IMG/VR virus record: IMGVR_UViG_3300013137_000785
Coordinates: 1 to 23,115 of that record
Source: a virus
Length of the DNA stretch: 23,115 nt
Strand: one strand, 5' to 3'
Shown: piece by piece, positions 3,003-23,115 of the stretch
Layout: each line of letters opens with the position of its first letter
How positions within the stretch are numbered: the first letter of the stretch is position 1
The notes under the pieces: model-generated
Told to the model about the DNA's origin: nothing
The model's input: only the letters and a program-made list of their open reading frames with translations
Databases searched by the model: none
Program-made: the position numbers and the translations under genes

Positions 3003-3043
3003 GCACAACCCGGCAGCACGGCGCTTGAGGAGGCGCACGGCTC

Positions 3044-3634: not shown

Positions 3635-3636
3635 AC

Positions 3637-4023
3637 ATGGCCCGTCCGCAGGCGCTGGCGGTGCGTAGGGCGTGGGACTGCGACTGCGATGGTGCGCAGC
3701 GCAGGCCGGTGCGTGCGACGACGCTAGACGGCCTCGGAGCGTCGGTGACGCGTATGCGCGACGGCATCGCTAAGCTGCTCGGGGATGCGCCGACGTCGTG
3801 CCCGTGGCGCGCGTACGCTGACCCGGTGGTGGCGCAGGCGCTGTCGCTGCGTGCTCGCGGCAACCTCGGCGCGGTCGAGCTCGACGCGCAGCCTGCTATC
3901 GTGGTCGAGGCGATGCTCGAGATCGACGGCTCGCAGAACCACGTCGAGGCGGTCGATGCGCGTGCGGAGCGCGAGCGACGCGAGGCAGAGCGCCGGATGG
4001 CTGAGGCTCAGCGCAAGGGGTGA
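3637..4023 (+). CDS. Tail assembly chaperone, downstream (T-type) product
   Basis: The gene encodes 128 aa from an ATG two bases after the upstream stop, or it is read as the C-terminal part of a frameshift fusion that enters this frame near 3514. The segment 'CPWRAYADPVVAQAL' (residues about 53-67) resembles a Cys-Pro-Trp-Arg motif seen in small proteins preceding the tape measure in several phage groups. The C-terminus is a charged helix rich in Arg and Glu. No strong ribosome binding site precedes the ATG, which would fit coupling or frameshifting as the means of translation. Its stop lies three bases before the tape measure start. Confidence 0.55.
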   Translation: MARPQALAVRRAWDCDCDGAQRRPVRATTLDGLGASVTRMRDGIAKLLGDAPTSCPWRAYADPVVAQALSLRARGNLGAVELDAQPAIVVEAMLEIDGSQNHVEAVDARAERERREAERRMAEAQRKG

Positions 4024-4026
4024 CCG

Positions 4027-9112: not shown

Positions 9113-9118
9113 GGGCAC

Positions 9119-9727
9119 ATGAGCACGAGCAACAGCGGCGGCTTCATCCTCGGTGTCGATACGACGTTCAGCAGCTACGGCAATCGGCCTGTCCGCACGA
9201 GCGAATGGCAAAGCATCGCAAACAATCTCAATCACCTCGCGGACGAGCGTTCGCGCGTGCTCGTGTGCTGGTCGCCGCGCTCGACGACGACGGGCGGCTA
9301 CACGATCAAGGTGTCGGGCGCATGGACGCGGCTGATGAGCTTTGGTCCGTTCCCATTGCTCGTCGGCGCAGACGGTACGCCGTATCCCGTGCGTCTCGCG
9401 GTCGGTGGACGCTCGACGGCATCGAGCCAGCTGCGCATCGGTGTCTGCGTGCTCGGCGCTGCTGATGCCGACATGAGCGCGACGACTGCGCCAGCGAACG
9501 TGCTCGAGAGTGCGGCATTCAACAACGCGACGAACCTCTGGCGCGTGGATGGCGGCGTGACCGTTGACCCGGTCTTCCAGGACTACGGCATCGTCAACGC
9601 GCTATCGGGCGCGACGCCTTCGACGGTGGCAGCGGTGCTCGTGACCGTCGAGGTCTGGGGCAAGAGCGCGACGGGCTCTGCGTGCGTGGCGACGCAGGCG
9701 TACGCGGCTGAACAGGTGGCGCTATGA
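9119..9727 (+). CDS. Probable tail-tip or fibre protein, unknown family
   Basis: This 202-aa, beta-rich protein begins six bases after the hub gene stop. The N-terminus 'GGFILGVDTTFSSYG' leads into a short helix, then an antiparallel beta pattern (residues about 60-130) with many Ser/Thr/Ala residues. It ends by overlapping the next gene (ATGA at 9724-9727), so the two are probably made together. No enzyme motif, signal peptide or membrane segment is visible. A minor virion role at the tail tip is inferred from its place between the hub and the esterase-bearing gene. Confidence 0.4.
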   Translation: MSTSNSGGFILGVDTTFSSYGNRPVRTSEWQSIANNLNHLADERSRVLVCWSPRSTTTGGYTIKVSGAWTRLMSFGPFPLLVGADGTPYPVRLAVGGRSTASSQLRIGVCVLGAADADMSATTAPANVLESAAFNNATNLWRVDGGVTVDPVFQDYGIVNALSGATPSTVAAVLVTVEVWGKSATGSACVATQAYAAEQVAL

Positions 9728-10734
9728 CCGCGACAGTCCCGGCCGCGCGTCCCGTCGTGCAGCAGGCCGACGTCGTCAGCGGGCAGGCTGTCCGCGCGCG
9801 CACGTGGCTCGACGCTGGCGAGCTCGCCAACTGGTGCAGCGGCAACGGCGAATACCTCGTGCCTGCGTACTCGCCAGAGCAGACCATGGCGGCTAACAAG
9901 ACCTTCGTGTTCCGCTTTCGCGTGACGCCGCCCGGCCGCGCTGTGCGTCGCGTCTGGCAGCTCTACCTTGAGGGCAACTGCGCGATCACGCTCGACGGCA
10001 ATGTCGGGCCGTCGGCCGACTACATCACCGACAGCGGCGGCACGTGGGTCCGCTACGTCGAAGACCTCACGGCGAAGTCGGCCACGCTGCAAGAGATATC
10101 GCTCTCAATCGCGAATGCCACGTCGAGCGGGTCGCTTATCGTCAAGAGCATCTGCTGCTACGAAGACCCGCGCATCGTGCTCGACAAGGACGCGACGGAC
10201 CTCGGCGTCGAGCTCACGTCGCTGGCGGTGCGCGAGCCGATTCAAGAGAACCAGTACACGTCGCTCGGCGGTATCGCGGCAGCTCTGGCGGCAGAGCAGC
10301 GTCGCCAGTATTTCAATGTCGCGCGTCCCGACGACATCGCGGAGTGCTGGGCCACGACGAGCGGCACCTTCGGCATCATGCTCGATGAGGTGCCCATCCT
10401 CACGCGCAAACTCTACCCGGCATCCACGACGGGCAACGTGCGATTCGCTGCGTTGTGCAAGGCCAGCGACGCGACGACCGACGGCGAGATTCGCGTTACG
10501 AACAACGCGACCGCAAACACCGTCACGCTCACCGTCAATAATCCCGGCACGAGCTGGGGCTGGTACACCATCGACTTCGCGAGCGACATTCTCTGTGAAG
10601 ATCTGACTGAGGGCACCGGCTGGCCTGATGGCGCGCTGCTGACGAGCGTTGCAAAGACGCTCGACATCGACTTCCGCGTCAGTGGTGGCGCAGGCACATT
10701 CTACGTCGCGACCATCGCGGCCATCGAGTATTGA
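9724..10734 (+). CDS. Probable tail fibre or virion protein with beta-sandwich domains
   Basis: This 336-aa protein appears to hold two similar halves. One around residues 40-150 has 'KTFVFRFRVTPPGRAVRRVWQL'-type strands and an ending like carbohydrate-binding beta-sandwich modules ('SIANATSSGSLIVKSICCYED'). The other, about 210-336, has 'LTVNNPGTSWGWYTIDFAS'. Between them lies a more helical linker (165-210). Such jelly-roll halves are common in receptor-binding or decoration proteins. This is judged from the residue pattern only. The start overlaps the preceding stop as ATGA. Confidence 0.4.
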   Translation: MTATVPAARPVVQQADVVSGQAVRARTWLDAGELANWCSGNGEYLVPAYSPEQTMAANKTFVFRFRVTPPGRAVRRVWQLYLEGNCAITLDGNVGPSADYITDSGGTWVRYVEDLTAKSATLQEISLSIANATSSGSLIVKSICCYEDPRIVLDKDATDLGVELTSLAVREPIQENQYTSLGGIAAALAAEQRRQYFNVARPDDIAECWATTSGTFGIMLDEVPILTRKLYPASTTGNVRFAALCKASDATTDGEIRVTNNATANTVTLTVNNPGTSWGWYTIDFASDILCEDLTEGTGWPDGALLTSVAKTLDIDFRVSGGAGTFYVATIAAIEY

Positions 10735-10760
10735 GCGCCACGCGCGCGAGGAGATAGACC

Positions 10761-11129
10761 ATGAGCGAAACGATCCTCCGAGAAGACGCCGACATTCTGC
10801 CGCCGGAGCAGGACGCGATTTCACAGGTCACGCTGACGGCAGCGACGGCGACGTCTGCGCAAGACACCGGCGTTACTGGCGCGACCATCGCGCTTGGTCC
10901 GCAGTTCGTGACGTTCTGCTCGACGGCTGAGTTTTTCATCGTCTTTTCTAAGGACGGCACAAACACGATCACGACGCCTGTCGTGACGACTGCGACGTGC
11001 TTCGGCCCGTTCCCTGCGAGCGTGCAAGTGCCTTTCCGCGTGACGCCGACGCAGCGTTACTTCCGCGCAATCTCGACGCCGGGCGGCACGCTCAAATGGT
11101 ATCGCAGCACCGGCCCCGGACAGGTCTGA
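10761..11129 (+). CDS. Small beta-rich virion protein (putative)
   Basis: This 122-aa protein has an acidic N-terminus (MSETILREDADILPPEQ) and then a compact beta pattern rich in Thr, Val and Phe. A GAGGAGAT sequence precedes the ATG at 10761, so it has its own good ribosome binding site. It lies directly before the LamG/SGNH gene (one-base gap). Segments such as 'GPQFVTFCSTAEFFIVFSKDG' suggest a single beta domain of the type found in small decoration or fibre-tip proteins. No family is recognised. Confidence 0.4.
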   Translation: MSETILREDADILPPEQDAISQVTLTAATATSAQDTGVTGATIALGPQFVTFCSTAEFFIVFSKDGTNTITTPVVTTATCFGPFPASVQVPFRVTPTQRYFRAISTPGGTLKWYRSTGPGQV

Positions 11130-11130
11130 C

Positions 11131-12939
11131 ATGAGTCGTCGAGGAGCAGGCGCGCGCGGAGGTCGCCGCGGCGGTAGCATCACGGAAGCGCCGTTTGACC
11201 CTGCGCTTGCGCCGATGTTTGCGTGGTATCGGCAGACGATGAGCGTGTCGCAGTGGACCGACTTGACCGCAGGCGCGCGTCACGCGACGCAGGCCACAGC
11301 GGGCAATCAACCTGTCTACACGGCGAGCGACGCTGACTTCAACAGCCAGCCGAGCCTGACGTTCACGACTGACGATTACATGAACTGCGGCGGCGTCGCG
11401 AGTGCGTGGGCGTTCCTGCACGACACCACAGATGCGACGCTCTACATGGTGTTCCGGCCATCGAGTACGACTGGCGAAACAAAGTACCTTTGGAACTCCA
11501 TCGGTGATCTCGTCGCGAACAATCGCGGTGTCTCGTTGCTCTACCATGCGACGACGCAGACGGCAGAGGTGTTCGTCGGCAACGCGGGCACGGCGCGGTG
11601 CGTGCAGATCATTGGCGCTGACTCGGAGGTCGTGCGCGACGCGGCGCACGTGCTCGTCTATCGCAAGAACGCAGGCGGCTTCCAGCTCTGGCTCGACGGC
11701 GCGCTGCTCTTGTCGGGCGAATACAACGGCACGCCGACCGCGACGGCAGCGACGGTTACGCCGTCCATCGGCGGCTATTCGGCGTACGCAGCGACGCGGC
11801 AGTTTGAGGGCAAGATGGCCGAGATCGGCGTGCTTGCGTCGTATACGTCGCCGGTCGCGATCACGGCATATGCGCGAGCGCGATATGCAATCACGACGTC
11901 GCGCGCGAATACGCATCGCAGCGCGTTTCAGGATGGGCTCAATCTCAACGCAGGCGCACCGACTGGCGGCTCAAAGGTCTGGTCGTACTACGGCGGCGTC
12001 AATGCGACTCCGGGCACGACGCGGCAGGTCGCGCGCGTCCTCAATCGCGCGACTGCGTACAACATCCAGACGCGCACTAACGGCACGCCTGCAAGCGCAA
12101 CGATTGGCAATGACAACCGCTACCGCGTCAGCACTGTACCGCTCACGCCTTCAGGATTCTCCGCAGATGCGCGGCCAATCAAAGCGCTGCTGATCGTCGG
12201 TGAGAGCTGCGCGCGCGGCCGGTCGTCCACCACGGGTTTGCCGTCAGGCTACCCACCAGCAAAAGGCGTGATTTACGCGTGGACTGGCGAGGACACCACG
12301 CTTGCGCTGCCGTCAATTGAGCAGCCGACCTACACCTACGGCGTTGATTCGATTCTCAACACCGATAGCGGTGTGCCCGGCGTCGGTCCCGGTGGCCTCG
12401 CGTCGTGGTACCTGCAAGTCGCAGAGGGTTCCGGCGCAGTCTGGCTGCACGTGAACTGCGGCAAGGGCGGGTCCACGTCTACGAACTGGAACAGCTCGAG
12501 CACGAACACAAACGTTTTGCTCGGTGCCACGCTAGCGCGCATTCGTCGCATCGAGGATGTCGCAGCGGCGTTTGGCGCAACGGTGCAATGGGTCGGCATC
12601 TACGTCGATCAGGGAATCAACGATGCCGTCGGTGCATCGCCTACGTGGGACACCAACTGGTCTGCGATTGAGACGGTGCTGCGCGGTGAAGCGGGCCTCG
12701 CGACTGTGCCGCTGGTATTCCGCAAGGAGCCGACAATCGTGCCCACGGATCTCTCGTATCCCGGCTGGACGACGGTACGCACGCAGCAGGACGGCTGGCA
12801 GAAGGGCACGTCACCAAAGCGCATCATGGTGGATATTGACCCGCTGCCTGATTACGTTGAGGCGGCTCAGGTGCATCCCGGCACGGTGTCGAATGCGCAG
12901 ATTGGATCGGCAGTCTCGACATCGATTAGGAGCGCGTGA
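11131..12939 (+). CDS. Tail protein: LamG-like domain joined to SGNH-type esterase
   Basis: This 602-aa protein has two parts. After a Gly/Arg-rich start, residues about 70-250 look like a concanavalin/LamG lectin fold ('ATLYMVFRPSS', 'GGFQLWLDGALLLSGEYNG', 'GKMAEIGVLASYTS'). Residues about 350-600 show SGNH hydrolase blocks: 'LIVGESCARG' with nucleophile candidate Ser359, 'GKGGSTST' with Gly446, 'DQGINDA' with Asn497, and 'AQVHPG' with His582. The block I form is close to that of sialate O-acetylesterase/CE6-like enzymes. The Asp usually three residues before the His is missing; Asp574 or Glu577 may serve. The likely role is to bind and deacylate host surface sugars during adsorption. The enzyme class is fairly clear; the substrate is unknown. 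Confidence 0.6.
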   Translation: MSRRGAGARGGRRGGSITEAPFDPALAPMFAWYRQTMSVSQWTDLTAGARHATQATAGNQPVYTASDADFNSQPSLTFTTDDYMNCGGVASAWAFLHDTTDATLYMVFRPSSTTGETKYLWNSIGDLVANNRGVSLLYHATTQTAEVFVGNAGTARCVQIIGADSEVVRDAAHVLVYRKNAGGFQLWLDGALLLSGEYNGTPTATAATVTPSIGGYSAYAATRQFEGKMAEIGVLASYTSPVAITAYARARYAITTSRANTHRSAFQDGLNLNAGAPTGGSKVWSYYGGVNATPGTTRQVARVLNRATAYNIQTRTNGTPASATIGNDNRYRVSTVPLTPSGFSADARPIKALLIVGESCARGRSSTTGLPSGYPPAKGVIYAWTGEDTTLALPSIEQPTYTYGVDSILNTDSGVPGVGPGGLASWYLQVAEGSGAVWLHVNCGKGGSTSTNWNSSSTNTNVLLGATLARIRRIEDVAAAFGATVQWVGIYVDQGINDAVGASPTWDTNWSAIETVLRGEAGLATVPLVFRKEPTIVPTDLSYPGWTTVRTQQDGWQKGTSPKRIMVDIDPLPDYVEAAQVHPGTVSNAQIGSAVSTSIRSA

Positions 12940-13172
12940 TGATGCCGCATACGCTGATCATCGATGACGTCCTCGTCGCGCTCACGTACTGCGTCGCGGG
13001 CGATGAGCGCGCGCTAGATCTGGAGCTGCGCTATGCGGACGGCACGTACGCGCTTGGCACGTACAGCGCGTCTGCGGGCCTCGTGCTCGCGGCATCGGCG
13101 CTGAGTGCGGATCAGCGCACGACGCTGATGCAGGGTTGCGCGGAAGCGCTGCAAGCATGGATGGACTCGTGA
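12939..13172 (+). CDS. Small hypothetical protein after the esterase gene
   Basis: The gene encodes 77 aa. It starts at 12939 (TGATG overlap with the previous stop) or at the next ATG at 12942; TAGGAG lies 6-9 bases before these. The first half is beta-like ('HTLIIDDVLVALTYCVAGDERALDLELRYADGTYALG', taken in pieces), and the end is an amphipathic helix ('QRTTLMQGCAEALQAWMD'). No motif is recognised. Its place between the fibre genes and the lysis cassette suggests a fibre-associated chaperone or minor structural protein, which is inference only. Confidence 0.5.
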   Translation: MMPHTLIIDDVLVALTYCVAGDERALDLELRYADGTYALGTYSASAGLVLAASALSADQRTTLMQGCAEALQAWMDS

Positions 13173-13187
13173 CTCGGAGGCGCAGCG

Positions 13188-13538
13188 ATGAACGTCTGGC
13201 AACTCATCGCCGCGCTCGCTGGTGCGCCGTCTGTCGGTCTGGTCATCCGCGCGATATTCAGGCGGCTCGACGGCAGCGCACGCACGAACTCACGCGAGGT
13301 GGACTATCTGCGCGGTGAGCTGGTGCGCGAGCGCCAGCAATGCGCCGACGACACGGCTGAACTCGAGGCGCGCATCGCGTATCAGGTCGAAGTGCACGAG
13401 ACGCTGCGCAAGCAGATCACGTCACTTGAGCGGCGCAACATTGAACTGAAGAACGACCTCGACGTGGTGCAGCGCGACCTCGCAGATATGCGCGCGGTGC
13501 TGCGGTGGAAGGCATCGCAACAGGGAGACGGCGAATGA
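13188..13538 (+). CDS. Membrane-anchored coiled-coil protein (i-spanin candidate)
   Basis: This 116-aa protein has one N-terminal hydrophobic segment (residues about 3-24) and then a long charged coiled coil (about 38-108) rich in Arg, Glu and Leu, ending in a polar tail. That shape fits an inner-membrane spanin (Rz-like), which joins with an outer-membrane lipoprotein to fuse the membranes at lysis. GGAGG lies 9 bases before the ATG. It overlaps the holin gene as ATGA at 13535-13538, and a lipoprotein gene follows, which supports a lysis role. Without a clear family match, a general lysis-cassette membrane protein is the safer reading. Confidence 0.5.
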   Translation: MNVWQLIAALAGAPSVGLVIRAIFRRLDGSARTNSREVDYLRGELVRERQQCADDTAELEARIAYQVEVHETLRKQITSLERRNIELKNDLDVVQRDLADMRAVLRWKASQQGDGE

Positions 13539-13768
13539 CGAAGCGAAAGACGAAGGCTGCGCCTCGCGCGCGTGTCCGCGTGACGGTGCCGATGATCGTC
13601 GGCTGGCTGACGAGCATCTCAATGGTGCTCGCGGCGGTGCTGCCGGTGCTGCCTGCGGCGACGCCGACGTGGCTGCGCGAGGTGCTAGCGCTGCTCGCGA
13701 TTGCGGTCGCTGCGACGGTCCAGTCATGGCGCGCGCCAGCGTCGCCGGAAGGGCAGGGCGAGACATGA
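13535..13768 (+). CDS. Holin, two transmembrane segments
   Basis: This 77-aa protein has a strongly basic N-terminus (MTKRKTKAAPRARVRV), two hydrophobic helices (residues about 18-38 and 48-64) separated by a short Pro/Thr turn, and a polar C-terminal tail. Holins of this size form membrane lesions that time lysis and let endolysin reach the cell wall. The ATG at 13535 overlaps the previous stop (ATGA), and its own stop overlaps the next start, so it sits in a coupled lysis unit about 1 kb before the amidase. The holin call is from topology and context; holins share little sequence. Confidence 0.65.
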   Translation: MTKRKTKAAPRARVRVTVPMIVGWLTSISMVLAAVLPVLPAATPTWLREVLALLAIAVAATVQSWRAPASPEGQGET

Positions 13769-14289
13769 CCGCGCTGCTGGCATCTCGAGAGTTTCAGCGT
13801 CGGGGCGTCATCGCGCTATGCGTCGCGTGGCTCGTCTCGCTCGCGGGCCTCGTGCTCGCTGCGTGCCTGACCGGCTGCGGGCCGTCTGCGCTCGCCATCC
13901 ATGCAGGCGCAGCCGACGTCGCAGGCGTCGCGATCAACGCGACCGGCGACGAGCTCGTGGCCGCGCGCGGTCGTGCGCTGCGCGAGGCGGTCGAAGAGGC
14001 ACCGTCGCGCGAGGTCGCGGAGAGCGGCGTCCAAGTCGTCGTCGCGCGATTCCTGCCTGCGCTCGAGGCGTACGATGCGCTGCGGCTGACGCATGACGCC
14101 TACGTCGATGCGCTCGTGCTCGCGGCTGCTGGTGCGCCGGCAGACCTCGGCCGGTGGGCGCAGCTCGCGGCGCGGCTGGTCCAGGCATGGGGCGCATGGG
14201 CCGCTGCGGGGGCTGCGCTGGGCGTCGAGGTCGTCAGCCCGCCTGCTGCGCTGGTCGCGGTCACTGCGGGCGCTGGAGGTGCCCTGTGA
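13765..14289 (+). CDS. Lipoprotein of the lysis cassette (o-spanin candidate)
   Basis: This 174-aa protein has a basic N-terminus (REFQRRG), a hydrophobic signal segment (about 14-33) and lipobox-like sequences L-A-A-C (Cys34) and L-T-G-C (Cys38) followed by Gly-Pro. Signal peptidase II cleavage before Cys38 would leave a lipid-anchored domain of about 137 residues, mostly Ala-rich helix. An outer-membrane spanin would be expected near a holin and a coiled-coil membrane protein, but this is much longer than classical Rz1 and is not nested in the i-spanin gene. A different periplasmic role is possible. The start overlaps the holin stop as ATGA. Confidence 0.55.
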   Translation: MTALLASREFQRRGVIALCVAWLVSLAGLVLAACLTGCGPSALAIHAGAADVAGVAINATGDELVAARGRALREAVEEAPSREVAESGVQVVVARFLPALEAYDALRLTHDAYVDALVLAAAGAPADLGRWAQLAARLVQAWGAWAAAGAALGVEVVSPPAALVAVTAGAGGAL

Positions 14290-14543
14290 GCCTCGCGGAC
14301 GGGCTGGACGCTGCGGCGGTGGCTGCGGACGCTACGGCGGCTGCTGCGCCCGCTGGCGTGGCGCGGTCGGTGGCGCTCATCGTCGCGGCGGCGCTGCGCA
14401 TGGCGGCACGTCTGGCGCGTGCCGGACAGAGCCCCGCGGCCATCGTCGAGGCTATCGAGCGTGTCGCGCCGCTGGACGACCGCATTGCGCAGCAGGACGC
14501 CGACATCGCAGCTCGCATCGCAGAGCGCTGGCCTCGTGAGTGA
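14286..14543 (+). CDS. Small Ala-rich helical protein, GTG start
   Basis: The gene encodes 85 aa, starting with GTG at 14286 that overlaps the lipoprotein stop (GTGA). The product is almost entirely Ala-rich helix. A moderately hydrophobic stretch (about residues 25-45, 'GVARSVALIVAAALRMAARL') could be a membrane-associated helix, and a charged C-terminal helix ends 'IAARIAERWPRE'. It lies between the lipoprotein and the endolysin, so a lysis accessory role such as antiholin is possible but unproven. High third-position GC and the tight overlap support that it is coding. No family is recognised. Confidence 0.5.
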   Translation: MSLADGLDAAAVAADATAAAAPAGVARSVALIVAAALRMAARLARAGQSPAAIVEAIERVAPLDDRIAQQDADIAARIAERWPRE

Positions 14544-14682
14544 CTCGCCACGCGAGGACGTGCTGCGCGCCGCGCTAGCGCTCGTCAGGGCGCGGCAGAA
14601 CGCGGGCCTGCCTCGCGCACGGGTGCAGGAGCTAGAGCGCGCTCTTGAGGCTGCTGCGCGCCGCTATTGGGCTGCGCTGTGA
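14536..14682 (+). CDS. 48-aa helical protein, GTG start
   Basis: The frame runs from GTG at 14536, overlapping the previous gene by 8 bases, to TGA at 14680-14682. The product (MSDSPREDVLRAALALVRAR... to ...RRYWAAL) is a charged amphipathic helix pair with no membrane segment or signal. Codon third positions are GC-rich, as in neighbouring genes. It is part of a run of three tiny genes that start with GTG and overlap one another before the endolysin. Function unknown. Confidence 0.45.
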   Translation: MSDSPREDVLRAALALVRARQNAGLPRARVQELERALEAAARRYWAAL

Positions 14683-14810
14683 GGCGCGCCATCAACGCGC
14701 TTGTCGCGGATGCGGCGCTGACTCTGTGGCAGGTGCTGCTATGGCTACGCTGCGAGCGCGCTGCGCTGGCTGTCGGGATGTGGGCATGGCGTCGCATCGG
14801 ACGCCTCTGA
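14679..14810 (+). CDS. 43-aa membrane-like peptide, GTG start
   Basis: Starting at GTG 14679, which overlaps the preceding stop as GTGA, this frame gives 43 residues ending at TGA 14808-14810, ten bases before the amidase ATG. The central part is hydrophobic with several Trp residues ('ALTLWQVLLWLRCERAALAV') and both ends carry Arg. This suggests a membrane-associated helix, for instance a holin regulator. It fills what would otherwise be a 138-base gap in a gapless operon, which supports it as a gene. No family is recognised. Confidence 0.4.
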   Translation: MRRAINALVADAALTLWQVLLWLRCERAALAVGMWAWRRIGRL

Positions 14811-14820
14811 GGAGCAAGCG

Positions 14821-15423
14821 ATGACGTGTGCTCAGCCGGTGATCGATGGACGGACGCTCTCGCCGTCGTGCTGGTGGCATCCGCCGCAGGAGGGATGCCG
14901 TCGTCGCAAGAGCCCGCCGCGCGCGGTGGTCTGGCACTGGACCGCAGGCGAGCGTGCGTGCGAGGGCGTCTGCTCGACGCTGCGGTCGCGCAAGCTCTCG
15001 ATCCACTACGTCATCGACGCGGACGGCCGCATCGTGGAGTGCGCGGACCCGGCGACGACGGTGGCCTATCACGCAGGCACGGCAAACGAATGGACCGTTG
15101 GCGTGGAGATTGTGAGTCGTGGCGTGCAGCCTGCGTTGCCTGCGCGTCCTCGCGAGCCCGTGTCGGTGCGCGTGCATGACCGGCCAGTCGCCGCGCTGAA
15201 CTTCACTTTCGCGCAGTATCTGTCGATACAGTCGCTCGCGGAGCAGCTCTCGCACGACCTCGGCATTCCGCGTGTGTGCGCAGGATTTGAGCCGACGGTG
15301 ATGACGCCCGGCGAGCAAAAGGCATTTGCAGGGCATCTCGAGCACGCGCATCTGAGCGCGGGCAAGATCGATTCTGGTGGTCTGGTCATGCGATTCCTGC
15401 GGGAACGCTGGGGCATCAAGTAA
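14821..15423 (+). CDS. Endolysin: N-acetylmuramoyl-L-alanine amidase (Amidase_2 type)
   Basis: This 200-aa enzyme is predicted to cut the bond between N-acetylmuramic acid and L-alanine in peptidoglycan. Amidase_2 hallmarks are visible: 'VVWHWTAGE' with zinc ligand candidate His39, 'SIHYVIDADGRIVE' (residues 60-73), 'YHAGTANEWTVGVEIVSRG' with Glu96, and a C-terminal 'GHLEHAHLSAGKIDSGG' (171-187) giving the second His ligand (His172 or nearby) and Asp184 in place of the usual Cys/Asp ligand. There is no signal peptide or separate cell-wall-binding domain, so release depends on the holin. GAGGAGC precedes the ATG. Length is typical of a single-domain phage amidase. Confidence 0.85.
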   Translation: MTCAQPVIDGRTLSPSCWWHPPQEGCRRRKSPPRAVVWHWTAGERACEGVCSTLRSRKLSIHYVIDADGRIVECADPATTVAYHAGTANEWTVGVEIVSRGVQPALPARPREPVSVRVHDRPVAALNFTFAQYLSIQSLAEQLSHDLGIPRVCAGFEPTVMTPGEQKAFAGHLEHAHLSAGKIDSGGLVMRFLRERWGIK

Positions 15424-15433
15424 GGAGTTCATC

Positions 15434-15841
15434 ATGGCTGTTCAGCTTTCGATTGCAGTCCGCAACGCGCGCCTCGACGCCATCGAGACGACCATCGGCA
15501 CGAGCGCCGTTCTCAGAATCCGCACGGGCGCGCAGCCTGCGACGTGCGCGACTGCCGATTCGGGCACCGTGCTCGCGACGCTCAATCTGCCGTCGGACTG
15601 GATGTCTGCTGCGGCGTCGGGCAGCAAATCGTTGCTGGGCACGTGGCAAGACCTGACTGCCGACAACACGGGCACGGCCGCGCATTTCCGACTCTACGAC
15701 TCCACCGGCGCGACGTGCGGTTTGCAGGGCAGCGTGACGGCGACTGGTGGCGGCGGCGATATGACGCTCGACAACACCAGCATCGCAAGCGGTCAGGCCG
15801 TCACGATCACGTCGTTCACGCTCACCGATGCGAACAGCTGA
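15434..15841 (+). CDS. Conserved small phage structural protein (beta-rich)
   Basis: The gene encodes 135 aa. The ATG at 15434 is chosen because AAGGAG lies 7-8 bases upstream; an in-frame start at 15377 is inside the amidase gene. The sequence has a pattern I recognise from many siphophage small proteins: 'VRNARLDAIETTIG', then 'LRIRTGAQPATCATADSGT', 'HFRLYDSTGATCGLQGSV' and a C-terminal 'DMTLDNTSIASGQAVTITSF'. Members usually lie near tail fibre or lysis genes and are thought to be virion-associated, though no role is proven. It overlaps the next gene as TGATG. Confidence 0.6.
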   Translation: MAVQLSIAVRNARLDAIETTIGTSAVLRIRTGAQPATCATADSGTVLATLNLPSDWMSAAASGSKSLLGTWQDLTADNTGTAAHFRLYDSTGATCGLQGSVTATGGGGDMTLDNTSIASGQAVTITSFTLTDANS

Positions 15842-16795: not shown

Positions 16796-17866
16796 ATGGC
16801 GACGTCGCTCGACAGATCGCTGATCGGCCTATTCAACACCGTCACCGTATTCGGGCTCGGTGACGGCAGCAGCGGCACCGCTGCGATCACGCTCGGCGCG
16901 CTCACGTCCTCAAGCGCGGGCACCGTTGCTATCAATGGCACTGCGAGCATCACGCTCGACGCACTCACGTCATCGTCGGCCGGAACAGTCGCAGTCGCGG
17001 GCACGTCTGCGATCACGCTCGGCGCAGCGACGCTTGCGAGTGCAGGCACCGTCGTCACGGCGGCGATTACAGGCACCGCATCGATCACGTTTGGCGCGCT
17101 GACGTCGAGCAGCGCCGGGACGGTGCTCGTCGCGGGTGGGCTGACGAAGACGCTCGACGCGATGACGTCGTCGTCGGCTGGCACCGTCCTCGTGACGGGC
17201 ACGTCGTCGGTCACGCTGGGCACAGCGACGCTGTCGAGCGCTGGCGGCGCGGCAGTCGCAGGCACGCTCGCGACGACGCTAGGTACGCTGACGTCGAGCT
17301 CGACGGGTACGGTGCTCGTCGCGGGCGCATCGGCCACGACGCTCGGCACGCTCACGGCTAGCAGCGCAGGCGGCGTCGGCGTAGCAGGCGCGCTCGCGAC
17401 TACGCTCGGCGCAGCGACGGCGACATCCTCGGGCGTCGTCCAAAATCTCGGCATCGCGTCGATCACGCTTGGTGCAGCCACGTCGAGCAGCGCCGGGACG
17501 GTGCTCGTCAATGGCGTCTACAACGCGCCATTCGCTGCGCTGACAGTCGCAAGCGCGGCCCGCGTCGCTGTCGCTGGTGCATCAGCGATCACGCTCGGCG
17601 CACTGACGCTATCGTCGGTCATCGACGTCTCCGCGCGCGGGCAGCTCGCGGTCACGCTGGGCGCGCTGCAACTCTCAGCGACCAATCGACCATTCGTGCC
17701 TGCGCGCGAGCGCACGGTGCGCGTCCCATCGTGGCCGCGTGCGCTTGTCGCGGAGGTCGCCGCGCGCGAAAACGTCGTGCCTGCGCAGCCGCGCATCATC
17801 GAAGCAATCGACCCTGAACGCACCATCGACCTACCGCGCGCGTCGCGAATCGTGAGGGCTGCATGA
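16796..17866 (+). CDS. Repeat protein with thirteen 21-residue repeats, probable fibre or shaft
   Basis: This 356-aa protein has a short N-terminal segment (1-29). Thirteen tandem repeats follow (about 30-305), each close to 'xITLGALTSSSAGTVxVxG'. Repeat 3 carries a three-residue insertion and repeats 11-13 are degenerate. A C-terminal region of about 50 residues is rich in Arg and Pro ('RERTVRVPSWPRALVAEVAARE'). Such T-L-G-A-L-T-S-S-S-A-G-T-V repeats occur in phage fibre-like or surface proteins and may form a beta-helical or beta-stack rod. The start follows a GAGGTAG sequence; the stop overlaps the next gene as ATGA. Confidence 0.6.
   Translation: MATSLDRSLIGLFNTVTVFGLGDGSSGTAAITLGALTSSSAGTVAINGTASITLDALTSSSAGTVAVAGTSAITLGAATLASAGTVVTAAITGTASITFGALTSSSAGTVLVAGGLTKTLDAMTSSSAGTVLVTGTSSVTLGTATLSSAGGAAVAGTLATTLGTLTSSSTGTVLVAGASATTLGTLTASSAGGVGVAGALATTLGAATATSSGVVQNLGIASITLGAATSSSAGTVLVNGVYNAPFAALTVASAARVAVAGASAITLGALTLSSVIDVSARGQLAVTLGALQLSATNRPFVPARERTVRVPSWPRALVAEVAARENVVPAQPRIIEAIDPERTIDLPRASRIVRAA
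16883..17710 (+). repeat. 13 tandem 63-bp coding repeats
   Basis: The repeats are in phase with the reading frame and encode 21 residues each (one has 24). At DNA level they share pieces such as ATCACGCTCGGCGC and AGCGCCGGGACGGTGCTCGT but vary at many third positions, so they are old or under selection on the protein. The array is not interspersed with unique spacers and is not a CRISPR array. Such arrays can change length by recombination. Confidence 0.8.
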
Positions 17867-18202: not shown

Positions 18203-18260
18203 GCCCTGCATCTCTGCTCTGCGTGTCGGCGCAGCGCGGGGATGCAGGGCTTTTCGTTTT
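18203..18260 (+). terminator. Rho-independent terminator of the late operon
   Basis: A perfect 10-bp outer stem pairs GCCCTGCATC (18203-18212) with GATGCAGGGC (18241-18250). An inner 5-bp stem CTGCG/CGCAG (18219-18223 with 18230-18234) closes a six-base loop, and TTTTCGTTTT follows at 18251-18260. The T-rich tail is only on the plus strand, so it ends the late transcript. The minus-strand operon coming the other way has no matching T-run here. Confidence 0.85.
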
Positions 18261-18269
18261 CCGTCGCGC

Positions 18270-18332
18270 TAAGTCCTGACCTCGTCGCCGTAAGTCCTGA
18301 CCTCATCGCGCCAAAGTCTGGACCTCAACGCG
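18270..18332. repeat. Three 21-bp tandem repeats at the convergent junction
   Basis: Three adjacent 21-base units share AAGTCCTGACCTC: TAAGTCCTGACCTCGTCGCC (18270), TAAGTCCTGACCTCATCGCG (18291) and a diverged CAAAGTCTGGACCTCAACGC (18312). The third lies in the 3' end of the cas6-like gene on the minus strand and the second overlaps its stop. The stretch between the two operons, 18166-18302, otherwise holds only the terminator. They may be a protein-binding site or a slippage product; no function can be assigned. Confidence 0.6.
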
Positions 18333-19046
18333 TCCGCAGCCGTACGCCACGCGCGCGCCAAGTCCAAGCCCGCGTGATGCGGCCTCAAGCACGTAGCGCG
18401 TCGTCGCATCGCACGCGACATCGACAGTGCCGACGAGCCCGTCAACGCGACCGACCTTGCCGCGGTAGTAGACAGGCACGTACTCAGTGCGGTCGTCGAG
18501 GACGCGCATCGTCAGCTCGCCAGGAAACAACTCCATCTTGCGCGCGAGCGTCCACGTCGCGTTGAGCATCGCTGCGTCGTCTGCGCGGCGCTTGCTGACC
18601 TTCTGGCCTGCGCTGTTGGTGCTGCTGACGACGAGCGGCGTACGCAGCGTGACGCGCGCGAAATGCGCGCCTGTCACGTACGCCGGCGGCACGTGCACGC
18701 GTATCGGTGCACCGAAGCGCAGCACGACATCGCGTGCTCCGATGCGTGAGTGCCGCGACGTCGTGGCGAGCGCGAGCGCGTCGGCCTCGCTCCACCACGC
18801 AGCGGCCCAGCCTGACGGCGACGCCCACGGCACGAGCGACCAATCGCTGCGCGTGTGCGCTGTCGGACGCTGATGACTGCGGCCGAGCGCGCCAGTCAGC
18901 GCAGCGTGCAGCCACGAACATTCATGCAGCTCGAGCGCGCGGTAGTAGCCGTCGAGCGCGATAGGCAGGCCCACGCACAGCGTCGCGCGCGGAGACGTCA
19001 CGCACGGCCTCAGCCAGTCGTCGTCAGTCGTTGCAAGCGCGCTCAT
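18303..19046 (-). CDS. cas6: Cas6-like CRISPR RNA endoribonuclease
   Basis: This 247-aa protein is read from the ATG at 19046, which overlaps the cysH stop as ATGA; an upstream ATG at 19079 is less likely. It has the two-RAMP layout of Cas6. The N-terminal part is 'LPIALDGYYRALELHECSWLHAALTGALG' in pieces, with His47 at the position where several Cas6 proteins have the catalytic His. A second part has 'VTLRTPLVVSS' and a final glycine-rich loop 'GLGLGARVAYGCGRVEV' (about residues 226-242), matching the Cas6 GxG...GxG signature. It would cleave repeat RNA to make guides. Family membership is judged by eye. Type IV-B loci normally lack Cas6, so this gene is unusual in this context; a diverged Csf5 is an alternative name. 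Confidence 0.72.
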   Translation of the reverse strand: MSALATTDDDWLRPCVTSPRATLCVGLPIALDGYYRALELHECSWLHAALTGALGRSHQRPTAHTRSDWSLVPWASPSGWAAAWWSEADALALATTSRHSRIGARDVVLRFGAPIRVHVPPAYVTGAHFARVTLRTPLVVSSTNSAGQKVSKRRADDAAMLNATWTLARKMELFPGELTMRVLDDRTEYVPVYYRGKVGRVDGLVGTVDVACDATTRYVLEAASRGLGLGARVAYGCGRVEVQTLAR

Positions 19047-19861
19047 GCGATCACCGGGCAGATGAGGCGTGGCACGCACTCATTGAAGGTCGGCGGCGTC
19101 TCAAGGTCAACGCGATGCTGCCGCTCAATGGCGCGGATGGTCTGGCCGTAGTAGCGCGACTCCCATTCTTGTCGGCCATGCCCCTCGCCGTAAAGGCCCC
19201 ACAAATTGTTGACGCGCACGCGTCCTCGCTCATAGCCGCCATTGAGCGCGCACGGGTAAGACGGGTGCAGCGGGAAGTCGAGCAGCCGCGCGAACACGTC
19301 CTCACTGCGCCACCAGCCAAGCGGACGGCCGGTGTTTGCGTCCTCGTCACCGAGCCCCAAGTGCTTGACGACGCGCTTGCGAATGCCTGCCTCTTCTGCG
19401 CGGATGCCGCTGACGTAGCGTTTGCCGAAGCGCCGCGCAGCAGCCGCAAAGCCTGCGCGATAGGCCGCGTTCGTGTCGTAGCGCCCGGTGCGTTCTTTCG
19501 TCTGGCAACGCACGCGGACCTCGTAATATCGCGCGCGAAGGTCGGGATACAGCGCCAGCCATAGGTCGCGCAGTTTGTCGCAGTCGGGATTGGCGACTGG
19601 TTCAATGATGACGTGCACGAGCGGCCAGTCGCAGTCGGACTCGACCACGAGCGACAGCAACGCTGTCGAGTCCTTGCCCCATGAAATGCCGATGTATCCG
19701 CGCTCGCCAGACACGAAGTCGGCAAGCGCTGCGCGTGCTTGCGCCAGTCGTCGCGCGTGCACCTGCGACGCGGCCCAAATAGCATCGACGCGTGCTCGCG
19801 ATTGCCAGATGCGCCAGTCCTCGTCGGTGCACCGCATTTGCAGCAGCTCGTCGCGATTCAT
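19043..19861 (-). CDS. cysH: CysH-like PP-loop (PAPS reductase family) protein of type IV-B locus
   Basis: This 272-aa protein has a PP-loop ATP-pyrophosphatase motif S60-W-G-K-D-S65 ('GYIGISWGKDSTALL'), where the usual second residue Gly is Trp. It is followed by 'VHVIIEPVANPDCDKLRDL', 'SGIRAEEAGIRKR' (151-163) and 'RPLGWWRSEDVFARLL' (179-194), all typical of the PAPS reductase/CysH superfamily. Such proteins use or bind adenylylated nucleotides. A CysH-like gene is the known hallmark neighbour of type IV-B CRISPR-Cas loci, where its role is not established. Metabolic sulfate reduction is unlikely: no cys genes are present, and it sits in an ATGA-coupled chain between csf3 and the cas6-like gene. 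Confidence 0.85.
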   Translation of the reverse strand: MNRDELLQMRCTDEDWRIWQSRARVDAIWAASQVHARRLAQARAALADFVSGERGYIGISWGKDSTALLSLVVESDCDWPLVHVIIEPVANPDCDKLRDLWLALYPDLRARYYEVRVRCQTKERTGRYDTNAAYRAGFAAAARRFGKRYVSGIRAEEAGIRKRVVKHLGLGDEDANTGRPLGWWRSEDVFARLLDFPLHPSYPCALNGGYERGRVRVNNLWGLYGEGHGRQEWESRYYGQTIRAIERQHRVDLETPPTFNECVPRLICPVIA

Positions 19862-20514
19862 GGCGGGCACGCAATTTCCTCTTCGCGCGCACGCGCCCAA
19901 TACGGCGGGCGCACGCAGCCGATACGCACCGCGTAGTCGCGCAGGCCCTCGACGTCGAGCGGTAGATGACGCATCGCTGCGCCGTCTGCGCTAAGCACCG
20001 GGAAGCCCGGCCACACCTCGTCCAGCTCCTCGACGCGCCAGCGCAGCACGGTGCCCTCGCCAACACCGCGACGACGGCCGAGACGCGACACCAGCGACAG
20101 CAGCTCGCGCACGCCGTCTGCGTCGCCCACCGCGTACCAGTGCAGCTCGCGCGCGTGCACCGTTTCGACGGGGATGCGGTACGCCTTGCACGAGCCTTCG
20201 CTGAGCTGGATGCGCTTGACGGTTGGACCGCCGAGCGCAATGGCCTCGCTCAGCGGGAAGCGTCGATTGAGCCACCGGTGCTCGCGCTGATCGATGTGCT
20301 GAATCGACGTCGTCGCGAGGTAGTACCGACCGCACGTAGAGAGCGCGATGGGAATGTCGAGCGGCTTCGCATTGACCGCGTCAGCCTGCGTGTACAACGG
20401 CGGCGCATCATCGCGACGTGCAGCCGCAGCCATCAGCAGCGCGTCGAGGTGAATGCCCTCTGGCGGCAGAATCAGCCGCGACTCCATCTCTGCGATAATG
20501 CGCAGCGGGGTCAT
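19858..20514 (-). CDS. csf3: Csf3, type IV Cas5-family subunit
   Basis: This 218-aa protein opens with 'RIIAEMESRLILPPEGIHLDALLMAAA' in two pieces, the N-terminal strand and helix with the 'hLDaLL' signature of Csf3. A glycine-rich RAMP loop 'GRRRGVGEGTVLRWRVEE' lies at about 146-163, and the C-terminus has 'VRPPYWARAREEEIACPP', also typical of Csf3. As the Cas5-like subunit it should cap the 5' end of the guide RNA and border the Csf2 filament. The ATG at 20514 overlaps the csf2 stop, and the stop overlaps cysH (both ATGA), so expression is tightly coupled. The RAMP loop and the conserved ends make the assignment fairly secure. Confidence 0.85.
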   Translation of the reverse strand: MTPLRIIAEMESRLILPPEGIHLDALLMAAAARRDDAPPLYTQADAVNAKPLDIPIALSTCGRYYLATTSIQHIDQREHRWLNRRFPLSEAIALGGPTVKRIQLSEGSCKAYRIPVETVHARELHWYAVGDADGVRELLSLVSRLGRRRGVGEGTVLRWRVEELDEVWPGFPVLSADGAAMRHLPLDVEGLRDYAVRIGCVRPPYWARAREEEIACPP

Positions 20515-21512
20515 GCTTGGATCTTCTCCAACGTGGCTTTGAGTTCGTCGGCGTGCTGCGCGACGTGTGCGCGGAATCGCGCAATCTCAGGCGCGCGATT
20601 GTCGCCAGTGATCGCAAGTGCGTCGAGCTGCGCAGGCGACGACGACACGTCGCGCTCGAGCCCGCGCGCTGCGACAGGCACGAGCAAACCATGCCCAGTG
20701 CCCTTCTTGCCGCCGACGCGAGCACGCGCCAGGAACGCCGCAAGCATCACGTACAGCGTGTCGCGCTCAAGCTGCGTATGCGTGACCGCGTCGAGCTTCC
20801 AGACAAAGAGGCTGCCCGCCGCGAGCGTCTCGAAAGTGAACGGCATCATCGTGCTCTTCTCGCGGTCCTTGCCCGCAGCGTCATCCCGCGCACTGGCGAC
20901 CTCGCTCGCGAGCAATCGATTCTCGGTCTTGAGTTGCTCAGTGCCGCTCATCAGCGCGCGCTTCTTGCTGTCGAGCGTCGGGTCCATGCGTACGCGCTGC
21001 ACGAGCTCGATGTGCTCGCGCGCCGACGACGTCTCTGCGCCGTCTTGCGTCATCATGTCGATGATCCACTGCGGCGTCAGATGGTGCCATTCGTCGCAGA
21101 CCAGCATCGCGTCGCCGCACTCGATCTTGCCGGGCTCGATGCGATTGCCGATGCAGCCGCCAAGCAGTCCGATGTGCGGGAGCAGCTCACGCATCTTGCG
21201 CGCGTCCTCGATGCGCACGACCTCGGCCGCAGCGCCGAGCACCATGCCGCCGCTGAACAGCAGACGCAGCGCAGCCTCGGTCAATCCCGGCCCGCCAGTC
21301 AGCATCCCTGCGGCCTCAAGCAGCGCGTACGTGCCCGCCTCGCGCAGCCCGTGCCGCATCGTGTCGCCGGTCACGTAGGGGATTTTCGTCCAGCGTCCCG
21401 ACGGCAGACGCACCTTGCGGCGCATCGCAACTTGCGTATTGCCGATGGTGCCTTCGGCGTGCGCGATGGGCTGCTCTGCGCGCAACAGGATCTCGATGCG
21501 ATGACGTTCCAT
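20511..21512 (-). CDS. csf2: Csf2, type IV Cas7-family backbone subunit
   Basis: This 333-aa protein is read from the ATG at 21512, which follows AGGAGAAAGC and overlaps the cas11 stop (TGATG); an in-frame start at 21608 would lie inside cas11. The N-terminus 'IEILLRAEQPIAHAEGTIGN' and the 'KIPYVTGDTMRHGLREAG' segment (43-60) are the Csf2 hallmarks: RAMP strand 1 and the conserved G-D-x-x-R-H-x-L-R loop. Near the C-terminus 'RVGGKKGTGHGLL' is a Gly-rich RAMP element. Cas7 subunits polymerise along the guide RNA, and type IV-B Csf2 is known to form a filament with Cas11. No nuclease residues are expected. Length is normal for the family. Confidence 0.88.
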   Translation of the reverse strand: MERHRIEILLRAEQPIAHAEGTIGNTQVAMRRKVRLPSGRWTKIPYVTGDTMRHGLREAGTYALLEAAGMLTGGPGLTEAALRLLFSGGMVLGAAAEVVRIEDARKMRELLPHIGLLGGCIGNRIEPGKIECGDAMLVCDEWHHLTPQWIIDMMTQDGAETSSAREHIELVQRVRMDPTLDSKKRALMSGTEQLKTENRLLASEVASARDDAAGKDREKSTMMPFTFETLAAGSLFVWKLDAVTHTQLERDTLYVMLAAFLARARVGGKKGTGHGLLVPVAARGLERDVSSSPAQLDALAITGDNRAPEIARFRAHVAQHADELKATLEKIQA

Positions 21513-21877
21513 CAGGCTTTCTCCTCTCGCGCGGCCTTGCGCCGCTCTGCTTCCACGCGTGACCGCGCCATCAGATAACCAATCTCCGATTCCAGCACGC
21601 CGATCCACAACATCGGGTCAGCATCCATCACATCAACCAGCGTCGTTGATGCCTTAGAAAAGGCTGAGCTGGGAGCCGAGAGATTCAGCCCGCGGCGCAG
21701 GCTCGACACCATCTGCTCCGCGTTGCCGCTCGTCCGCAACGACGTCGCCAACCGGTCCTGCAACTGGTCCCAATGCTTCATCGGGTTCGCGCCGTTCGCG
21801 AGATACTCCGCTCGCGCTTCGAGCAGCAGCATCACCGCTGCCTCGCGTACCGCGTCCGCTCTTTGTTCGTCCAGCAT
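21512..21877 (-). CDS. cas11: Cas11-like small subunit of the type IV-B complex
   Basis: This 121-aa, helical and charged protein lies between csf1 and csf2, exactly where type IV-B loci encode the small subunit that lines the inside of the Csf2 filament. The ATG at 21877 is chosen for the purine-rich AAAGGGAAG just upstream and because codons downstream are strongly GC-rich at third positions; the frame is open further 5' to 21994 but inside csf1. Visible features are an acidic first helix ('LDEQRADAVREAAVMLLLEAR'-like), a central loop with Ser/Ala ('NLSAPSSAFSKAS') and a final basic helix ending 'RRKAAREEKA'. The first 224 nt overlap the csf1 tail in another frame. Small subunits share little sequence, so the call rests on position and fold. 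Confidence 0.7.
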   Translation of the reverse strand: MLDEQRADAVREAAVMLLLEARAEYLANGANPMKHWDQLQDRLATSLRTSGNAEQMVSSLRRGLNLSAPSSAFSKASTTLVDVMDADPMLWIGVLESEIGYLMARSRVEAERRKAAREEKA

Positions 21878-22607
21878 TCTTCGCTTCCCTTTCCAGCGCC
21901 ATGCGCGCCTGCACCGCATCCTCGTCGCGCTGTGACAGCCACAGCGCCAACTCATACCAACCGCCTCCGCGTTCGCCGCCATACTCGCGCTCAAATACGC
22001 GCAGCGCCTGCTCAGCCAACTGCCACGCGCGCGGCGTAAACTGGCCCGTCTCGAGTTCGGCCTTGGTGACGCCAGCCGTCAGCAAGTCACGCATCATGTC
22101 GGCCAGCAGCCAGTCACCGATTACGACGTCGCGCTGCTCAAAGCGCACGATGCCATTGCCGCGCATACGCGCCGTGTTGACGCGTGCCCACGGCAGGACG
22201 TGCTTCTGCCCGCTGTCGGCAATCGCGGCCCACCACGCGCCACGCTTAGGCCCGCGCAGCCATTCGCGGATGACGGGCTTGCTGCCCTTGTTTGCAAACA
22301 CGTAGCCGCGCTCATCGTACAGATGCGAGAACAGCCGCAGATTGACGCCCTTCTTGCCGGGCTCTGCGGGTGGATATCCCGGTGGCTGCACCCATGAGTG
22401 CGCGTAGACGCACGGCTCGCAGATGCGGTCGCTCAAGCCGTGGCCCATGAGTTTGTTCTGGTCGGTGAACGACGCGCCCTGCCAGCGCTTGTACGCGTGC
22501 GTCCTCGGCCAGTCGCGCGCGCAGACCACGCACGCAGCGGCGACGTCCTCGCAGCCTTCCTGCGGCGGTGAGCCCGCCACGCGGAACACGTCGCGTGCTG
22601 GCGTCAT
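21654..22607 (-). CDS. csf1: Csf1, type IV large-subunit (Cas8-like) zinc-finger protein, with extended C-terminal tail
   Basis: This 317-aa protein has a four-cysteine zinc-binding layout, C26-x2-C29 ('CVVCARDWP') and C63-x2-C66 ('RICEPCVYAHSW'). Between them lies 'GASFTDQNKLMGHGLSD', a pattern close to the 'F.D...L......IC..C' region of Csf1. Residues about 90-235 are helical and beta mixed with 'LYDERGYVFANKGSKPVIREW'. From residue 244 to 317 the frame overlaps cas11; this tail is rich in Gly, Arg, Ala, Asp and Glu, is poor in GC-rich third positions, and ends 'SLGSQLSLF'. QLSLF matches the beta-sliding-clamp-binding pentapeptide. The start overlaps the upstream gene's stop as ATGA. Csf1 is the proposed recognition (large) subunit of type IV complexes. 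Confidence 0.82.
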   Translation of the reverse strand: MTPARDVFRVAGSPPQEGCEDVAAACVVCARDWPRTHAYKRWQGASFTDQNKLMGHGLSDRICEPCVYAHSWVQPPGYPPAEPGKKGVNLRLFSHLYDERGYVFANKGSKPVIREWLRGPKRGAWWAAIADSGQKHVLPWARVNTARMRGNGIVRFEQRDVVIGDWLLADMMRDLLTAGVTKAELETGQFTPRAWQLAEQALRVFEREYGGERGGGWYELALWLSQRDEDAVQARMALEREAKNAGRTKSGRGTRGSGDAAARSASGVSRERREPDEALGPVAGPVGDVVADERQRGADGVEPAPRAESLGSQLSLF

Positions 22608-22849
22608 ACGCGCTGCAACTCTGCGAGCTGCGCTAACGCTTCCTCGGCGCGGTGGTACTCGCGCTCGCGCCCGTCAAGCGCCTGCCGCAGTTCGACGCGC
22701 ACTCGCGCTAGATGCGCCATCGCGTCGTCGCGCTGCACCTCGCAGCGACGCAGCTCCGACATCGTCGCGCCGAGCGTCTGCCGCAGCTCGCGGATGTTCG
22801 TCTCGAGCGCTGCGACGTAGGCCGCGCCGTCGTGTTCGCCGTTGCTCAT
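22604..22849 (-). CDS. Small coiled-coil protein coupled to csf1
   Basis: The gene encodes 81 aa from the ATG at 22849, which overlaps the upstream stop as ATGA; an ATG at 22858 is possible. After a polar start (MSNGEHDGAAYV) the protein is one continuous charged helix with regularly spaced Leu residues ('ALETNIRELRQTLGATMSEL', 'VRVELRQALDGREREYHRAE'), so it is probably a coiled coil. Its stop overlaps the csf1 start by four bases. It has no recognised family and no known counterpart in the standard type IV-B gene set. It may be an accessory subunit, or simply a phage gene from which the csf operon continues. Confidence 0.6.
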   Translation of the reverse strand: MSNGEHDGAAYVAALETNIRELRQTLGATMSELRRCEVQRDDAMAHLARVRVELRQALDGREREYHRAEEALAQLAELQRV

Positions 22850-23115
22850 GTCCACCACTCCACTCGCGTCTTGCGACGCCGCTTGCCGCGCTCCAATCGC
22901 ACGGCGCAGAAGTCTGACTCCGCGTTACCGACGCGCAGGCCCGCTGCCAGGAATTGCGGGCGTCGCGCACAGTACGCGAGCCCAGTCATCTGCCAGTCGC
23001 GGCCGATGCGCGACCACACGTCCTTGTGGCGCTGCTGGCCTGCAAGCGCGTTGACCCGCAACAACACGGCGACGCGTGGCGCTTGCTCCATCGCGCGCGT
23101 GATGAACGCAGCGTC
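22846..23115 (-). CDS. Hypothetical protein, 5' end beyond the window
   Basis: The frame is open to the right edge and ends at TGA 22846-22848, overlapping the coiled-coil gene start. At least 89 residues are visible; an ATG at 23091 has no ribosome binding site, so the true start is probably outside. The protein is basic, with 'QRHKDVWSRIGRDWQMTGLAYCARRPQFL' (in pieces) and a C-terminus 'ERGKRRRKTRVEWWT'. The many Arg and aromatic residues would suit nucleic-acid binding, but I recognise no family. It shows that the csf genes are a continuation of a longer minus-strand transcript. Confidence 0.5.
   Translation of the reverse strand, partial: DAAFITRAMEQAPRVAVLLRVNALAGQQRHKDVWSRIGRDWQMTGLAYCARRPQFLAAGLRVGNAESDFCAVRLERGKRRRKTRVEWWT

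Follow-up and report, generated by a model that had tools for sequence, protein, structure and literature searches.

Where would a CRISPR (clustered regularly interspaced short palindromic repeats) effector carried by a phage obtain its RNA, and on what would it act? The question is raised by a 23,115-bp stretch of DNA, hereafter the window, which is the entire IMG/VR virus record IMGVR_UViG_3300013137_000785 and in which csf1, cas11, csf2, csf3, cysH and cas6 form six intact open reading frames (ORFs) on the minus strand between positions 18303 and 22607. Our analysis indicates that this operon almost certainly encodes a type IV-B CRISPR effector, in a variant form that is carried by a virus and includes a Cas6. 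Because type IV-B loci have previously been reported on viruses (PMC10848311, PMC11656645), their occurrence in a phage is not by itself new. Type IV-B has, however, been described as devoid of a CRISPR RNA (crRNA)-processing enzyme (PMC8175902; PMC7937560), and in the literature accessible to us Cas6 in such a system is new, an earlier mention elsewhere being possible. The genes and the motifs on which the argument turns are as follows.

18303–19046, minus strand: cas6 (cas6L), 247 amino acids (aa), ATG start, overlapping cysH by 4 nucleotides (nt); AlphaFold (AF2) model with Foldseek, and PADLOC.
18330–18365, minus strand: glycine-rich loop of Cas6, residues 228–239, from an 11-sequence alignment.
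18906–18908, minus strand: codon of Cas6 His47, candidate catalytic histidine in the first long helix, from alignment and model.
19043–19861, minus strand: cysH-like gene (CasCysH, allele type A), 272 aa; PHROG PAPS reductase, E = 7.8e-13.
19667–19684, minus strand: PP-loop SWGKDS of cysH, a sequence motif.
19858–20514, minus strand: csf3 (Cas5-like), 218 aa; PADLOC, 3.6e-43; TIGR03116, 8.3e-18 (below the curated cut-off).
20511–21512, minus strand: csf2 (Cas7-like backbone), 333 aa; PADLOC, 3.3e-47; PDB 7jhy, 2.7e-14.
21512–21877, minus strand: cas11-like small subunit, 121 aa; PADLOC, 5e-7; start set by aligning relatives.
21654–22607, minus strand: csf1 (large subunit), 317 aa; PADLOC, 1.1e-16; TIGR03114, 8.6e-6 (below the curated cut-off).
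21657–21671, minus strand: QLSLF, the last five residues of Csf1, a consensus beta-clamp-binding pentapeptide.

An initial annotation, made from the sequence, had called the module type IV-B-like, and all of its gene assignments, Cas6 included, hold. PADLOC models match Csf1, Cas11, Csf2 and Csf3, and the best solved relative of Csf2 is the type IV-B Csf2 7jhy, the type IV-A Csf2 8rc2 reaching only 0.0027. A Csf2 of the type IV-B kind is thus accompanied by csf1, csf3, a Cas11-like subunit and a cysH-like gene, and no other Cas family was found within the window module. The DinG helicase of type IV-A is absent (PF13307, 0 of 16 records), and the large subunit fits Csf1 models, not the Cas10-like subunit with an HD nuclease that marks type IV-C. 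Type IV-B is usually described as lacking an array and adaptation genes, which agrees with the window, itself a fragment, and as lacking a crRNA-processing enzyme, a trait that is not a signature gene and from which the window departs. Because Cas6 is present, we file the module as a type IV-B variant and not as a typical member. In a Csf2 tree, whose deep branches are long and of unsure order, the window falls in a viral clade of 19 rows (support 100/100) that excludes phage SPI1 and the actinobacterial plasmid type IV-B loci. Cleavage of target RNA by Csf2 is unsupported: Asp42, the putative catalytic residue of 7jhy (PMC7937560), aligns with Thr, Ala or Ser in this clade, according to an alignment in which positions were counted by hand.

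Comparison with known systems delimits the variant. Plasmid type IV-B loci (Mycobacterium sp. JS623, 7jhy; Rhodococcus, Gordonia and Mycolicibacterium) have csf1, cas11, csf2, csf3 and a cysH-like gene in common with the window, and no array or DinG is described for them; their Csf2 is, however, ~25% identical to that of the window, their cysH is often divergent from the operon, and no Cas6 was annotated or detected in those inspected. Skermania phage SPI1 (KR011061), like the window, carries csf1-cas11-csf2-csf3-cysH in one direction, but its Csf2 is 28% identical to the window's, it has no clamp motif, and the cas6L profile finds no Cas6 in it. The atypical type IV-B locus of Fuxivirus, a Bathyarchaeia virus, is also virus-borne with CysH; unlike the window, it belongs to an archaeal virus and has a two-repeat mini-array with Cas4 elsewhere, and its text mentions no Cas6 (PMC10848311). 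Type IV-A (Csf1–3 with Cas6/Csf5, DinG and an array) shares with the window a Cas6 in the operon, whereas the window module lacks DinG and array and possesses Cas11 and CysH.

Identification of Cas6 was settled by its relatives and by structure. The window protein alone gave a weak PADLOC match (0.0036), and members of the same lineage match well (3.6e-7 for L023 and 3.5e-8 for L039), the L039 protein exceeding the Pfam cut-off for Cas_Cas6_C. A profile-only PDB search returned maltose-binding protein as its sole match, which we judged to be due to chance. An AF2 model from 3 sequences reached a predicted local distance difference test (pLDDT) score of 29, which was remedied by an 11-sequence alignment (pLDDT 85.4). 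In Foldseek, every one of the 43 PDB matches of this model at E ≤ 1e-3 is a Cas6 or a CRISPR entry that contains Cas6, among them 6njy, a Cas6 of type IV, and the predicted fold is the tandem RAMP fold of Cas6; no BFVD viral protein matches the model at the same threshold. His47, in a helix spanning model residues 40–53, is kept in 10 of the 10 rows covering that column and is a candidate for the catalytic histidine, and the C-terminal loop G228-x-G230...G236-x-G238-R239 is invariant in the 11 sequences. The modelled protein thus shares with the Cas6 proteins of T. thermophilus (TTHB231, 4c9d), P. furiosus (3qjj) and type IV (6njy) the fold, a helix-borne conserved histidine and a C-terminal glycine-rich loop, but is just 9–18% identical to them and forms a separate lineage. 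Its ratio of nonsynonymous to synonymous substitution rates (dN/dS, 0.13–0.32) is similar to those of the csf genes, and cas6 is under purifying selection. The model confirms the Cas6 identity given by the initial annotation, which had not flagged that such a gene is unexpected in type IV-B; the clamp-binding tail of Csf1, the exchange of cysH alleles and the presence of the module in dozens of viral contigs likewise go beyond that annotation. Several relatives are extended at the N-terminus by a Cys-rich, Zn-ribbon-like segment, which is missing from the window protein.

Scanning viral contigs revealed about 40 loci with csf2, csf3 and cysH, and cas6 is present in 13 of the 19 members of the viral Csf2 clade. 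The position of the window-lineage gene varies: it lies 3′ of cysH in the window, G001, G002, G003 and G005, 5′ of csf1 in L023, L037, L039, L048, L049 and L051, and between csf3 and cysH, as a split ORF, in L050. Four other viral type IV-B operons contain unrelated Cas6 families, namely Cas6e in L060 (1e-24), Cas6b in L076 (4.4e-52), Cas6 in L061 (1.9e-11) and a Cas6e-like gene in L045 (3.2e-8); no Cas6 match was found in L062, whose Csf2 is almost identical to that of L061. Such variety is expected if each Cas6 fits a different host repeat.

The genome that carries the module is that of a true tailed phage. From the left edge to position 18165, the plus strand is occupied by structural and lysis genes of the phage, including those for Neck1 (PHROG, 3.6e-22), the tape measure protein (PHROG, 6.2e-5) and an amidase endolysin (Pfam, 9e-14), and the operon faces them head-on, as annotated initially. 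Since the window is a complete record, the terminase and portal fall outside it; the terminase that the initial annotation proposed to seek on flanking contigs is found, as large and small subunits, in G002, a 49.5-kb relative colinear with the window at 77–82% nucleotide identity, that also encodes a DnaB-like helicase, RecT and SSB. Misassembly of a plasmid with a phage, named in that annotation as a possible refutation, is excluded because four further records, each from other metagenomes (G001, G002, G003 and G005), carry the same operon on colinear phage contigs. The operon also occurs in G004 (51 kb; Csf2 47% identical), with cas6 relocated upstream of csf1. A first scan of genome contigs gave no match and a second gave one, a contig from a Betaproteobacteria metagenome-assembled genome (L037, VGID01000082.1) with type IV-B genes and a Cas6 of the window clade; this sole match in a cellular assembly may be a prophage or a phage that was binned with the genome.

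No CRISPR array was detected alongside Cas6: searching for exact repeat pairs of at least 20 nt at CRISPR-like spacing, with low-complexity and coding repeats set aside, revealed none in 23 records covered in full or almost in full, G002, G003 and G004 among them. The detector works, since it recovered the true array of L065. Neither Cas1 nor DinG was detected in 16 records. In the absence of an array, Cas1 and DinG, guides must be supplied from elsewhere. Most type IV-B loci are array-less in the 2025 classification (PMC12669027). L065 is itself a viral contig of another layout, on which type IV-B genes and a TnpB/Cas12f-like protein of 623 aa are followed by an array of about 11 repeats of 37 nt (positions 6196–15440); this phage also encodes a sliding clamp.

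A second feature that sets these viral systems apart lies in Csf1, which carries a long low-complexity C-terminal tail ending in QLSLF. This pentapeptide, in an exposed tail, fits both QL[S/D]LF, the consensus by which bacterial proteins bind the sliding clamp (PMC12309361), and the looser form QxxLF; PolC has the same C-terminal pentapeptide (PMC12309361). QLSLF or a close form occurs at or near the Csf1 C-terminus in the window, G001, G002, G003, G005, L023, L035, L039, L051, L052, L061, L064 and L065. The strict motif is found in 9 of 21 viral Csf1 lineages, grouped by hand, versus 2 of 1021 other ORFs (Fisher p = 4e-15), this background consisting of unannotated ORFs, many of which are not genes. 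The motif codons vary among viruses, as do the overlapping cas11 residues (SSAFS, SSRCS, SSTCS, SSRSS), which argues for selection in the csf1 frame; that QLSLF could be a by-product of cas11 coding is further contradicted by L061 and L065, which share the motif without an open cas11 frame opposite. Sampled plasmid Csf1 proteins (211–228 aa, versus 317 aa in the window) and the SPI1 Csf1 are short and devoid of QLxLF, a plasmid/viral difference that alone is not significant (p = 0.06) with the few plasmid sequences at hand. As no clamp gene was detected in 14 of 16 records, the clamp partner would in most phages be that of the host, whereas G007 and G024 have a clamp gene themselves. In G007 (L039, positions 2016–6810), the clamp ORF (3609–4979) lies upstream of cas6 and csf1, at a distance of about 0.9 kb, and is preceded by an ORF that by eye is integrase-like. 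To judge from the accessible literature, a type IV-B system bearing a clamp motif is new.

The PP-loop S(W/G/F/A)GKDS is present in every CysH sampled. Two cysH alleles, ~25% identical to each other, replace one another in operons whose Csf proteins are 71–98% identical: type A in the window, G001 and G003, and type B, for which a match to Pfam PAPS_reduct at 5.6e-15 was obtained, in G002, G005 and also the more distant G004. The alleles were swapped independently of csf and cas6 (window, 19043–19861; L014, 8743–9507; L016, 6653–7414; L018, 7186–8004), a pattern suggestive of an effector or specificity module being exchanged. A second PP-loop gene follows viral type IV-B loci without detected cas6 in L042 (10774–13211) and likewise in L041, L043, L044 and L046; in L042 the stretch comprises a ParB-like gene and a PAPS_reduct/DUF3440 gene, resembling an IbrA/IbrB pair. 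ParB-like and DUF3440 genes also lie near the Rhodovastum plasmid locus L135.

Junctions between the operon genes are compact, although not uniformly as annotated initially. The overlaps of 1–4 nt stand for csf2/csf3, csf3/cysH and cysH/cas6 (ATGA, 4 nt) and for cas11/csf2 (TGATG, 1 nt), whereas the start of cas11 (ATG at 21877) lies well inside csf1 (stop at 21654), giving an out-of-frame overlap of ~224 nt. Two further features flank the operon.

22604–22858, minus strand: orfX, 84 aa, predicted coiled coil, coupled to csf1 by ATGA (4-nt overlap) and conserved in relatives.
18203–18250, no strand assigned: conserved hairpin between the convergent cas6 and tail operon, with compensatory stem changes.

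A homologue of orfX (62–71% identical) occupies the equivalent position in four relatives, and orfX is probably the leader gene of the operon. The hairpin combines a 10-bp stem with a long loop, and TTTTCGTTTT comes after it on the plus strand, for which reason we read it as the probable terminator of the tail operon; it has no Rfam match and is absent from the output of a short-loop terminator scan. A role as Cas6 substrate is not favored, as the long loop and TTTTCGTTTT fit a terminator. Two 21-nt head-to-tail copies resembling the 3′ end of cas6 lie at 18262–18303, with three copies in L015 and none in G002, G003 and G005. Elsewhere in the window, repeats with a 63-nt (21-aa) period lie inside the gene of a tail or fibre-like protein (16874–17509). 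A gene for an SNF2-type helicase is found shortly upstream of the type IV-B operon in L052 (4985–6697), L035 (6716–8881) and L023 (3541–4935).

We tentatively propose a mechanism that, taken as a whole, we hold at somewhat below even confidence. During infection, Cas6 would cut RNA that contains repeats and is provided in trans, most likely as host CRISPR transcripts, and the Csf2/Cas11 filament, Csf3 and Csf1 would assemble on the resulting guides. The Csf1 tail would tether the complex to replicating DNA by way of the sliding clamp, that of the host in most phages here, where CysH, as a PP-loop enzyme, would act on the bound target. Host guides matching competing phages or plasmids would let the complex block these rivals, and loading of host crRNAs would in addition deplete the host CRISPR complexes. 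As the initial annotation suggested, the module may be directed at rival plasmids or phages, or at the transcription of the host. That viral type IV-B constitutes a distinct functional class, defined by host crRNAs taken in trans, clamp-tethered recognition at replication forks and a CysH effector, is a bolder claim that we consider rather unlikely.

Several observations weigh against this mechanism. The main doubt comes from the only type IV-B complex to have been purified, a plasmid-borne one from Mycobacterium, which failed to enrich crRNA when offered a type I-E array and Cas6 (PMC7937560); its lineage is one without a Cas6 of its own. No cas6 was detected in 6 of the 19 viral clade members, so Cas6 is not everywhere essential, and the clamp motif is missing from the L041–L046 group and from L049. 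Clamp docking is predicted from a motif.

Sponging has been suggested before for type IV-B (PMC8175902), and an alternative that we regard as unlikely but credible is a counter-defence in which the Cas6 and Csf proteins of the phage capture or misprocess host crRNAs, leaving the host CRISPR complex empty without any need to bind a target. Cas6 without an array, Cas6 families that vary by virus as if fitted to different hosts, and the lack of any effector nuclease among our findings are all consistent with such a guide-RNA sponge. It leaves unexplained, however, the Csf1 clamp motif and the conserved CysH, Cas6 alone would be enough for misprocessing, and the failure of the plasmid complex to capture crRNA counts against it as well. 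Quite improbable is a system acting on RNA unrelated to CRISPR, in which Cas6 would trim phage or host transcripts that the filament then coats or silences, controlling expression. The heterogeneous 55–60 nt RNA bound by the purified complex of the Mycobacterium plasmid system, which has no Cas6 of its own (PMC7937560), and the absence of an array would agree with this view, but Cas6 proteins are typically repeat-specific, the diverse captured Cas6 families suggest specific substrates, and the clamp motif points to DNA.

Still more doubtful is an autonomous system guided by a mini-array or single repeat located in the unsequenced part of the phage, or too short or degenerate for detection. The window is a fragment and the Fuxivirus mini-array provides a precedent; nevertheless, no CRISPR-like repeat pair was found in G002, G003, G004 and 20 other records by a scan that detected the array of L065. 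Finally, although type IV-B is typical of plasmids and the record is a linear metagenomic fragment, a non-functional hitchhiker or an assembly artefact is refuted for practical purposes by the recurrence of the operon in other metagenomes and by genes that are all intact, with dN/dS of 0.07–0.44 across the operon.

Few CRISPR-like systems are as poorly understood as type IV-B, notably as to where its RNA comes from and where it acts. Repeated capture of Cas6 by array-less viral type IV-B operons implies that RNA processing matters to them and provides a handle, namely which repeats get cut, while the clamp-binding tail of the large subunit is a candidate docking site for the type IV-B complex. 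Both Cas6 specificity and clamp docking are open to ordinary biochemistry.

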